In this document: piece after piece, positions 13,448-16,083 of the stretch
Layout of the letters: every line of letters begins with the position of its first letter
Numbering within the stretch: position 1 is the stretch's first letter
Assembly: GCA_016939335.1 (NCBI GenBank)
Contig: JAFGHC010000037.1
Span: 1-46,572, forward strand
Direction: 5' to 3'
DNA length: 46,572 nucleotides
From: Candidatus Saganbacteria bacterium
GTDB lineage: Bacteria; Margulisbacteria; WOR-1; O2-12-FULL-45-9; XYB2-FULL-48-7
Position numbers and translations under genes: made by a program
Notes under the pieces: generated by a model
Seen by the model: only the letters and a program-made list of their open reading frames with translations
What the model was told of the DNA's origin: nothing
Database searches by the model: none

Positions 13448-14144
13448 GATCTTCGGGCTTGATCTTGCCTTCGTAAAGCGCTTTGCCGACGATACAGCCT
13501 TCGACGCCGAGCTCTTTGAGCTTGAGGATATCTTCTTTCGACGAAATGCCGCCCGAGGCGATCACTGCCACGCCGGTCGCTGCGGCAAAGGCCCTGATCC
13601 CCTCGAAATTGGGCCCGGCCAGCATGCCGTCGCGGCTGATCTCGGTGTAGATGAAGCGGCGCACGCCGAGGCCGATCGCTTCTTTGGCCAGGGTCAGGAC
13701 GTCCTTTTTGCTGACGTACATCCAGCCCTCGGCCGCCGCGAAGTTCCCCTTGGCGTCGATCGCCACGGCGATCCGGTCGTCGAATTTCTCGCAGACGCTC
13801 GAGAGCAGGTTGGGGTTCTTGATGGCGGTCGTCCCCAGGATGATCCGGTCGGCGCCGTAGCCGAGCAGCTCGGAGATCGTCGTGAAGTTCCTGATCCCGC
13901 CGCCGGCCTGGACCGGGAGGCCGGCCTCCTTGATGATCGTTTTGATCAGGGCGATGTTCTCCGGCGTGCCGGTGCGCGCCCCGTCGAGATCGACGACGTG
14001 CAGCCGCCGCGCCCCGGCGGCGGCCCATTGCCGGGCCACGTCGACCGGGTCGGGCGAATAAATTATGGGCGACTCGTAGCGCCCCTGCTTGAGCCGCACG
14101 CACTTGCCGCCGAGGATATCGATCGCCGGGATTACTTCAAACAT
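13437..14144 (-). CDS. hisA: Phosphoribosylformimino-5-aminoimidazole carboxamide ribotide isomerase
   Basis: MFEVIPAIDILGGKCVRLKQG; VQAGGGIRNFTTISELLGYGADRIILGT; overlaps ycaO 3' end convergently. Confidence 0.95.
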   Translation of the reverse strand: MFEVIPAIDILGGKCVRLKQGRYESPIIYSPDPVDVARQWAAAGARRLHVVDLDGARTGTPENIALIKTIIKEAGLPVQAGGGIRNFTTISELLGYGADRIILGTTAIKNPNLLSSVCEKFDDRIAVAIDAKGNFAAAEGWMYVSKKDVLTLAKEAIGLGVRRFIYTEISRDGMLAGPNFEGIRAFAAATGVAVIASGGISSKEDILKLKELGVEGCIVGKALYEGKIKPEDLTV

Positions 14145-14758
14145 AATTTCCCAAAGTTTTTGAGGACCTTAAGTCCCGCGGCACCGCTTTTTTCCGGATG
14201 GAACTGGATGCCGTAAATATTGTCTTTCCAGACCGCCGAGACGAATTCTAGCCCATAATCGGTCCTGGTTGCAACTACCGGTTCGTCTTTCGGGATGACA
14301 TAATAGGAATGGGCAAAATAGAACGTGGTCCCATCCTCGAGCCCGTCAAGGATCGGGGCCTGGCGTTTGATCAGGAGACGGTTCCAGCCCATATGGGGAA
14401 CGCTCTGGCCCGACCAGGGAGTGCCGGCGAAATCGAACTTTTTGACCGCGCCCGGCAGGATCGCCAGCCCCTTTTCTTTGCCTTCTTCCGACGCTTCAAA
14501 TAAGTGCTGCAGGCCGAGGCAGATGCCGAGGAAAGGCTTGCCCAGGGCGATGGCTTCTTCGATCACCCCTTCGAGGGAGAGGGCGCGCAGCTCCTTGATC
14601 GCGGAGTCAAAAGAACCGACGCCGGGCAGGATCAGGCCGCTGGCCCCCCGGATGGTGTTTTTGTCCCGGGTGATCTCGGCCGCCACGCCGGCCGCCTCGC
14701 AGGCTTTCTCGACGCTGCGCAGGTTCCCTGCGCCGTAGTTTATGATGGCTAAAGACAT
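14132..14758 (-). CDS. hisH: Imidazole glycerol phosphate synthase glutamine amidotransferase subunit
   Basis: IINYGAGNLRSVEKA; ILPGVGSFDSA; FLGICLGLQHLFE; IYGIQFHPEKSG. Confidence 0.95.
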   Translation of the reverse strand: MSLAIINYGAGNLRSVEKACEAAGVAAEITRDKNTIRGASGLILPGVGSFDSAIKELRALSLEGVIEEAIALGKPFLGICLGLQHLFEASEEGKEKGLAILPGAVKKFDFAGTPWSGQSVPHMGWNRLLIKRQAPILDGLEDGTTFYFAHSYYVIPKDEPVVATRTDYGLEFVSAVWKDNIYGIQFHPEKSGAAGLKVLKNFGKLCLK

Positions 14759-15220
14759 CCGGGCACCTCATCCGCTGATGCTAAACCGGCCTCCTTCCCC
14801 ATCTTCGATGGAGAAGGGAGAGACAATTTTATTAGTTCCAAAGCTTTGCTTATGTTTTTCATGACCATGTCATTATTGAATCTCATGACTTTTATCCCGT
14901 TGGCCTCGATTATCTGCTGGCGTTCCGAATCATAACCCTTTTGTCGTTTATGAATAGGGCCGTCTAATTCTATAGCAACTTTAGCTTCGGCACAATAGAA
15001 GTCCAGAATAAAGCCTTGAAAAACGTGTTGGCGACGGAATTTTCTGCCGGTCAGATGATGGTTGCGCAGGAATTTCCAAAGATGCTTTTCTGCTTCGGTT
15101 TGCTCTTTTCTCAGTTCACGGGAACGCAAGACTTTAGCGAGCTTCGCCATTTGTTTTTCCCCTCTCCATGAAATGGAGAGGGGGGGCGGTTCGTGCCAGC
15201 GGGTGAGGTGCTAAAGACAT
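14748..15220 (-). mobile_element. DUF559-gene mobile element with terminal inverted repeats, end hairpins and an 11 bp flanking direct repeat
   Basis: GCTAAAGACAT at 14748-14758 and 15210-15220; TIRs GCACCTCATCCGCTGATGCTAAACC (14763-14787) and GGTTCGTGCCAGCGGGTGAGGTGC (15188-15211); hairpins at 14793-14817 and 15159-15183. Confidence 0.8.
14749..15150 (-). CDS. DUF559 / Vsr-like PD-(D/E)XK endonuclease-like protein
   Basis: LRKEQTEAEKHLWKFLRNHHLTGRKFRRQHVFQGFILDFYCAEAKVAIELDGPIHKRQKGYDSERQQIIEANGIKVMRFNN is the DUF559 signature; C-terminal ~25 aa are encoded by the repeat end. Confidence 0.88.
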   Translation of the reverse strand: MAKLAKVLRSRELRKEQTEAEKHLWKFLRNHHLTGRKFRRQHVFQGFILDFYCAEAKVAIELDGPIHKRQKGYDSERQQIIEANGIKVMRFNNDMVMKNISKALELIKLSLPSPSKMGKEAGLASADEVPGCL

Positions 15221-16083
15221 AGCGCAACCGCGCCGAGGACCCCCGCTTCGTCGCCCAGTTTGGCGCGCACGATCCTGACGCTGCCCGCGGGAAGGGTGAG
15301 GGCGTATTCTTTGAACTCTTTTTTGATCGGGTTGAGCAGCAGTTCCCTCATTTTGGAAACGCCGCCGCCCAGCACGACCAGCTCGGGATTGAAAATATTG
15401 ACGAGATTGGCGATGCCGACCGCCAGGTAATGGGCCGTCCGGGCGATGACTTTCTGGGCCCTTCTGCCGCCCTGGCGGGCGGCCAGCTCGACGGAGATCG
15501 CGTCCATCCCGGCGCGCCGCCTGATGGCGGTGCCGGAGCCGAGCGCTTCCAGGCAGCCGAGGTTGCCGCAGCCGCAGCGGAAGCCCTTCGAGTCGATGAC
15601 CATGTGGCCGAACTCGCCGGCGGAGCCGATCGCGCCCCGGTAGAGTTTCCGGTCGATAATGATCCCGCCGCCGATGCCGGTCGAGATCGTTATATAAATG
15701 AAATGGCGGGCCTTTTTGCCGGCGCCGAAGTAGGCCTCGGCCAGCGCCGCGCAGTTGGCGTCGTTATCGAGGCGGACGGGGACATGAAATTCCTTTTCCA
15801 GGATCTTTTTTAAATTGACCCGCTGCCAGCCGGGGAGGTTGGGGGGTTCGATCACGACCCCTTTTTCGTAAAGGATCGGGCCGGGAACGCCGATGCCGAG
15901 GCAGGTGACTTTCTTGCGTGAGCCGCGTTTCAGGTTATAAACCGCCTTGATGATGTTATCGATGACCTGTTTCCGGCCTTTGGCCGCTTCGGTAGGGATG
16001 TTGACGTCGGTGACGATCTTGCCCTCAGGGGTCGCTAAACAAGCCGCGATCTTGGTACCGCCGAGGTCGATGCCGATTATCAT
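15211..16083 (-). CDS. ROK family sugar kinase (glucokinase-like)
   Basis: IGIDLGGTKIAACLA; STGIGGGIIIDRKLYRGAIGSAGEFGHMVID; CGCGNLGCLEALGSGTAI. Confidence 0.92.
   Translation of the reverse strand: MIIGIDLGGTKIAACLATPEGKIVTDVNIPTEAAKGRKQVIDNIIKAVYNLKRGSRKKVTCLGIGVPGPILYEKGVVIEPPNLPGWQRVNLKKILEKEFHVPVRLDNDANCAALAEAYFGAGKKARHFIYITISTGIGGGIIIDRKLYRGAIGSAGEFGHMVIDSKGFRCGCGNLGCLEALGSGTAIRRRAGMDAISVELAARQGGRRAQKVIARTAHYLAVGIANLVNIFNPELVVLGGGVSKMRELLLNPIKKEFKEYALTLPAGSVRIVRAKLGDEAGVLGAVALCL

Follow-up and report, generated by a model that had tools for sequence, protein, structure and literature searches.

The DUF559 nuclease gene between rok and hisH in the window (the 46,572-nucleotide stretch of DNA analysed here) probably belongs to a full-length mobile element that encodes DUF559 as its sole protein, is bounded by inverted repeats and hairpins, and would be moved by that nuclease. 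Comparison of the sequences shows that the element was inserted into a one-copy rok/hisH overlap, of which about 9 bp were duplicated, and that related elements are present in many phyla, where they are accompanied by gene-less copies and often lie in frame in host genes. The same comparison establishes the mobility of the element, for which DUF559 is the presumptive driver.

The rok/hisH junction of the window

The genome that contains the window belongs to the Margulisiibacteriota/“Saganbacteria” (WOR-1) group, and its nearest named locus (L194) comes from WOR-1. The original prediction described an exact 11-mer repeat, GCTAAAGACAT, and the window sequence carries it at 14748-14758 and 15210-15220. 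In minus-strand orientation, the rok stop (15211-15213) comes from the right copy and the hisH ATG (14756-14758) from the left one, as had been claimed. The inverted ends (consensus GCACCTCAyCCGCTG) delimit an element of about 450 bp, and one hairpin lies inward of each end (Table 1). DUF559 is the only gene between them according to the list of open reading frames and a profile search, neither of which revealed a gene for a transposase or recombinase there. Both the inverted repeats with their hairpins around a lone DUF559 gene (PF04480, E 6.8e-36) and the course of its reading frame had been foreseen correctly: the frame traverses the hisH-side end, which thereby encodes the C terminus of the protein, and stops inside the duplicated copy in the same frame as rok. 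At the other side, the rok TAG is followed by HLTRWHEPPPLSISWRGEKQ up to the DUF559 methionine, all in one frame with rok. The final G of this TAG is the first base of the element. Both host genes survive because rok obtains the last base of its stop codon from the element and hisH starts anew at the duplicated ATG.

Two copies of the repeat are thus present, but the predicted length of 11 bp did not stand. A duplication of 9 bp is the best reading, since a gene-less insertion at the same junction of a distant relative (G017) shows a clean 9-bp duplication. In the window, the duplicated sequence is therefore probably ATGTCTTTA, and the GC next to it would serve at once as the first two bases of the element and as the bases after the target. 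The CCTCAC of the rok-side end CAGCGGGTGAGGTGC forms the start of most further copies in the window genome. The hisH-side end reads GG(G/A)TGAGG on the minus strand (within 14763-14777) just upstream of the regenerated hisH start and could act as a ribosome binding site.

Table 1. Features of the DUF559 element and its host genes, in window coordinates.
Feature	Position	Strand	Basis
DUF559 (Vsr/EDxHD-like PD-(D/E)XK) nuclease gene, 133 aa	14749..15150	-	ORF; PF04480 E 6.8e-36
Element proper, both ends included, 449 bp	14763..15211		Inverted ends; missing from 24/27 readable genomes
Terminal inverted repeat, hisH side, GCACCTCATCCGCTG	14763..14777	+	Related end copies elsewhere in genome
Terminal inverted repeat, rok side, CAGCGGGTGAGGTGC	15197..15211	+	Sequence
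Subterminal hairpin, hisH side, CCTTCCCCATCTTCGATGGAGAAGG	14793..14818		CCTTCTCC type at same end of gene-less copies
Subterminal hairpin, rok side, CCCCTCTCCATGAAATGGAGAGGGG	15159..15183		CCCTCTCC type at same end of gene-less copies
Target duplication copy 1, probably ATGTCTTTA (minus strand), hisH start	14750..14758	-	Single in empty relatives; 9-bp duplication in G017
Target duplication copy 2, probably ATGTCTTTA, rok end	15212..15220	-	Sequence; empty relatives; G017
Four extra bases CCGG between hisH-side element end and duplication, part of neither	14759..14762		CCGA in G003
Host gene rok (ROK family), intact	15211..16083	-	PF00480 E 3.8e-81
Host gene hisH (glutamine amidotransferase), intact	14132..14758	-	PF00117 E 1.7e-21

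Empty and filled junctions in relatives

hisH was searched for in 39 genomes, and its start is readable in 27 of them, the window’s own included. The junction is empty in 24 of the 27, with rok running straight into hisH. These are the single-copy empty sites that the original prediction proposed to look for, and they hold only one copy of the overlap or of a variant of it. As claimed, the element rebuilds both overlapping host genes, and rok and hisH are whole in the window. Nearly all empty junctions share one ATGTCT(A/T)TAGC-like overlap; some have GTG starts, and in two the genes are adjacent without that overlap.

The only filled junctions among the readable genomes are those of the window genome (G000), G003, and G017. 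G003 and G008 form a sister pair (91% identity in hisH) with G000 outside it (79%), and the junction is filled in G003 and empty in G008. The insertions of G003 and G000 have the same right-hand extra bases (CCGA/CCGG), and the nucleotide identity of their DUF559 genes (74%) is comparable to that of hisH (77%). A single old insertion that was later lost exactly from G008 is therefore likely, the alternative being an independent gain. In G003 (L003/L194), the ends are doubled on both sides: those of another copy enclose the DUF559 element.

The gene-less element of G017 has the arrangement CT-ATGTCTATA-ATCCTCACCCC...hairpin...hairpin...CGGATGAGGAT-ATGTCTATA-GC, with symmetrical ends around which the 9 bp are cleanly duplicated, and its first base turns the rok stop into TAA. 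All other readable members of the G017 family have an empty junction. Repeated insertion exactly at rok/hisH probably reflects the fact that few positions spare both overlapping genes.

Inverted ends at DUF559 loci across phyla

A DUF559 match is found in 28 of the 39 related genomes. The flanks of DUF559 loci were first inspected by eye, after which 123 distinct loci from many phyla were tested for inverted arms, defined by a score of at least 12 within 300 bp. Such arms are present at 94 of the 123 loci, compared with 16 of 610 neighbouring control sites at the same loci (Fisher P 1e-74) and 1 of 24 hisH control genes; DUF559 genes with inverted ends of the same kind, which the original prediction suggested seeking elsewhere, are hence widespread. 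Clear inverted arms are absent from the remaining 29 loci. When arm partners were swapped between loci, the rate was 18.5% versus 78% for true partners (in a set that was not deduplicated), so the arms fit their own partner far better than any common motif would allow. The boundaries are illustrated by two copies in G029 (L030 and L061) that lie 12 kb apart and share 92% identity between TCCTCACCCC and GGGGTGAGG; past these ends there is no similarity, and the flanks are unrelated. In L030, 9 bp (CCGTTGACA) are duplicated where the upstream gene ends.

End sequence tracks the DUF559 protein clade and not the host in the loci compared. End similarity climbs with DUF559 identity (Spearman 0.39; the largest of 500 permutations gave 0.14; for the window’s phylum against all others, 0.29 versus 0.17). 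The DUF559 tree, which is based on a short alignment and has many weak forks, requires 18 changes of end type, whereas none of 200 label shuffles needed fewer than 29; for the window’s phylum by itself, the tree requires 5 changes and the shuffles never fewer than 11. The same holds inside single genomes, as the elements L007/L030/L061 versus L068 of G029 and L063/L005 versus L067 of G004 each carry the ends typical of their protein clade. The CTCCCCTT type is an end from another DUF559 clade than that of the window.

Gene-less copies and target duplications

In the window genome, 16 further places match the end alone (E < 0.01), and several complete gene-less elements of about 110-125 bp show the same left/right asymmetry. 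Gene-less copies measure 112-132 bp overall. A 123-bp gene-less copy used as query gives at least 21-29 matches each in G000, G003, G005, G006, G008, and G014. With the ends of the full-length element and more than 20 matches in several genomes, these short gene-less copies have the organisation of miniature inverted-repeat transposable elements (MITEs). At least 28 matches are found in G014 (85% complete), and 11 and 12 in G018 and G026 (71 and 99% complete); a search for a DUF559 gene in these three genomes retrieved none. Across 32 genomes, gene-less matches (among the matches listed) and DUF559 genes are not correlated in number (rho 0.14, P 0.43).

Target duplications of 8-9 bp are seen in G000, G003, G017, L007, and L030, and the clear ones are found mostly in elements whose hairpins are of the CTCCAT type (L001, L003, L007, L030, and G017). 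A 9-mer repeat with at most one mismatch flanks 5 of 57 DUF559 elements versus 0.9% of swapped pairs. No target duplication was detected at 38 full-length gene-less copies of one subfamily, whose ends reach ACAGCCCTCACCC...GGATGAGGGCTGT. Duplication as a general rule was rejected, as most copies have no visible one. Clear short direct repeats, which the original prediction suggested seeking at DUF559 genes, occur mainly in one subfamily and do not extend to the abundant gene-less copies tested.

In-frame residence inside host genes

At 19 of 127 loci, the DUF559 frame continues without a stop for 100 aa or more to either side, which places the element in frame within a host protein. The hosts include HsdM, type I R subunits (HsdR), type ISP and Eco57I-like enzymes, LeuRS, a YrdC-type protein, and MetH, the last being an assignment from sequence. 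In HsdM, the element occupies one loop at five loci. Fusions to one protein end involve HemD, CbiC, N-formylglutamate amidohydrolase, and an amidohydrolase. In the genome with the LeuRS insertion, a search with the LeuRS editing domain yielded no further strong match. In one Chloroflexota family, the linker of the MetH-like protein exists in empty short, gene-less in-frame (several), and DUF559-containing in-frame versions in different genomes; the last version occurs in 13 genomes and adds 172 to 224 aa. An intein is not indicated: in 12 proteins with a fused or embedded element, the domains recognised (E <= 1e-10) were DUF559 and those of the host, and no splicing (Hint) domain was among them.

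The typical terminal peptides of the elements are LTPNPSPxGEG ... GEGxGVR. The arms are open by preference in the DUF559 frame: 32 of 54 left arms are open in this frame, compared with 3 and 14 in the two others, and 26 of 54 right arms, compared with 14 and 15. When only the terminal 51 nt are considered, the bias is weaker (left 38 versus 22 and 32; right 31 versus 20 and 24).

Relatives of the HsdM and LeuRS hosts were rejected as empty sites. The HsdM loop is too variable, and the closest HsdM relative, G078, has a different palindromic insertion there; the LeuRS loop is too variable for a duplication to be seen. The G078 insertion (L313), a short palindrome (SVRASPVGAHNTCD; GGGCATCCCCTGTGGGTGCCC), lies in frame in the hsdM loop where others have DUF559. 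The MetH-like linker appears to receive small repeats in general, because other small repeated in-frame insertions (GAGASPAPTR and ITNNQLP types) are found there in L373, L375, L382, L383, L354, and L384.

The DUF559 protein

The window protein matches PF04480 with 122.9 bits (curated cut-off 20.6, E 6.8e-36). The acidic and histidine site residues E21, D50, E61, and H67 do not vary among 56 sequences, and D63 hardly does. Pairs of DUF559 genes have dN/dS values of 0.04-0.13 (0.13 for the window and G003 copies), indicating purifying selection. The AlphaFold model (pLDDT 82.5) resembles NGO0050 (PDB 3HRL) and I-Bth0305I (PDB 3R3P, TM-score 0.72 on target length), and its match to Vsr is weak. 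The catalytic domain of I-Bth0305I is homologous to DUF559 (E 2.8e-6), and the PHROGs match of DUF559 is a homing-endonuclease family. The profile match and the site residues place the protein in the DUF559 (Vsr/EDxHD-like) family, as predicted.

NGO0050, E. coli YcjD, and Caulobacter VsrA belong to the same DUF559 family as the window protein. NGO0050 is a solved endonuclease-like protein and YcjD is of unknown function. VsrA, a proposed mismatch-repair enzyme, causes an SOS response in cells without a methyltransferase (PMC12907096). The papers found do not describe any of the three as parts of mobile elements.

Proposed mechanism and alternatives

The empty junctions and the lack of an encoded transposase or recombinase support the original prediction of a minimal mobile element in which DUF559 is not accompanied by a known transposase. 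DUF559, as a relative of I-Bth0305I, would recognise its own palindromic ends and introduce breaks, and host repair would then complete excision or copying, and insertion. A nuclease assisted by host repair would explain the small filler sequences (beside L030 and the window copy) and the inconsistent duplications, and it accounts for the presence of a homing-type enzyme. The reading is weakened by the 29 loci that lack clear arms, the many copies with no visible duplication, the gene-less matches of G014 and the missing correlation of such matches with DUF559 genes, the rarity of DUF559 on phages and plasmids, and the repair role proposed for VsrA. Survival inside coding sequence may be due to the tendency of the element to stay open end to end in the DUF559 frame. 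The chances are about even that DUF559 elements form a separate autonomous mobile class across bacteria, whose hairpin-ended DNA is moved via host repair by nothing more than a Vsr/homing-endonuclease-like hydrolase and is made to survive in proteins in frame, with the common intergenic palindromes of the CCCTCACCC/CCCTCTCC type as its non-autonomous copies.

The main rival is homing into pre-existing repeats, which we consider unlikely. DUF559 would then be a homing endonuclease that parasitises palindromic repeats spread by other means, cutting gene-less repeats into which repair copies the gene. This would fit the nearest characterised structure, which is a homing endonuclease, as well as the gene-less copies that far outnumber DUF559 copies in several genomes, the one MetH linker that is empty, gene-less, or DUF559-filled in different genomes, and the nested element of G003. 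However, the near-identical DUF559 copies of G029 sit in unrelated sites with nothing in common past their ends, several end types exist, each with its own DUF559 clade, and we know of no independent agent that spreads these repeats.

It is quite improbable that an unrelated transposase works in trans on the ends and that DUF559 is a passenger, for instance a stabilising or defending nuclease. Although 9-bp duplications are usual for some classical transposases, the MITE-like organisation fits mobilisation in trans, and the element itself encodes no classical transposase, DUF559 is the sole cargo in many phyla, end type tracks DUF559 even among the elements of one genome (G029 and G004), and most copies are missing a visible duplication. 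The view of DUF559 as an ordinary host Vsr-like repair gene, with terminators or common intergenic repeats beside it by chance, draws on the frequency of the repeat motifs and the role proposed for VsrA (PMC12907096) but can practically be dismissed given the filled versus empty junctions (which contradict it for the window copy), the sharp identity boundaries, the in-frame insertions, and the contrast to neighbouring sites.

Comparison with known elements

The nearest known phenomenon to the DUF559 elements are the Rickettsia palindromic elements, short palindromic sequences inserted in frame in protein-coding genes, metabolic ones included (PMC10969869). DUF559 elements likewise reside in frame inside protein-coding genes (19/127 loci). 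The Rickettsia elements are about 150 bp long and encode only a short peptide, whereas the full-length elements described here encode a nuclease and the hosts belong to many phyla (a comparison by description, not by sequence). I-Bth0305I (Vsr-like EDxHD) shares a homologous catalytic domain but is the protein of a mobile intron. The window element and six other loci gave no match to an Rfam RNA or intron, and DUF559 has its own palindromic ends and many sites. In REP/RAYT and IS200/IS605 systems, a small nuclease gene with hairpin ends is accompanied by many gene-less palindromic copies, as in DUF559 elements, but the enzyme is an HUH tyrosine transposase. DUF559 elements instead encode a PD-(D/E)XK/Vsr-like hydrolase, and 8-9-bp duplications flank some of them. 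With the insertion sequences and MITEs of classical transposases, DUF559 elements have in common the terminal inverted repeats, the gene-less copies, and in some cases a 9-bp duplication. They differ in having no transposase gene, in many cases no duplication, and a frame that is often open end to end.

DUF559 with inverted repeats, COG2852 repeats, or the motif CCCTCACCC were not found described in the open literature (subscription journals and specialist element databases were outside the search), and the element is provisionally regarded as novel. If DUF559 moves these elements, a common family of “unknown function” would gain a role and the abundant palindromic repeats of many genomes a source. 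It would represent an additional type of mobile element, one whose hydrolytic nuclease, of the homing type, is paired with its own palindromic ends and not with an intron or intein. Residence in frame in genes such as LeuRS would show selfish DNA lengthening essential proteins, and it would suggest where to seek the driver of the in-frame Rickettsia palindromes.

DUF559 on plasmids and at polymorphic sites

DUF559 is rare on phages and plasmids, which offer too few DUF559 genes to serve as a source of polymorphic sites. On the Synechocystis B12 plasmid (L111), a DUF1156 gene is apparently interrupted by a DUF559 element whose ends are of the TCACCC/CTCTCC type; a second copy of this insertion was sought and none was found. 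On a Pseudanabaena plasmid (L277), DUF559 is annotated within a gene of ~1,620 codons. In Legionella, segments with a transposase and DUF559 are recombination hotspots (PMC12308824). The E. coli ycjD gene was rejected as a filled/empty pair, since the sampled alternative sapF-fabI alleles hold an efflux operon and not a clean empty site. ycjD, which encodes a DUF559 protein, is present with its flanks in 3366 of 5426 E. coli genomes (about 62%), and the four ycjD-less genomes looked at hold a multidrug efflux operon between sapF and fabI (L280-L286).
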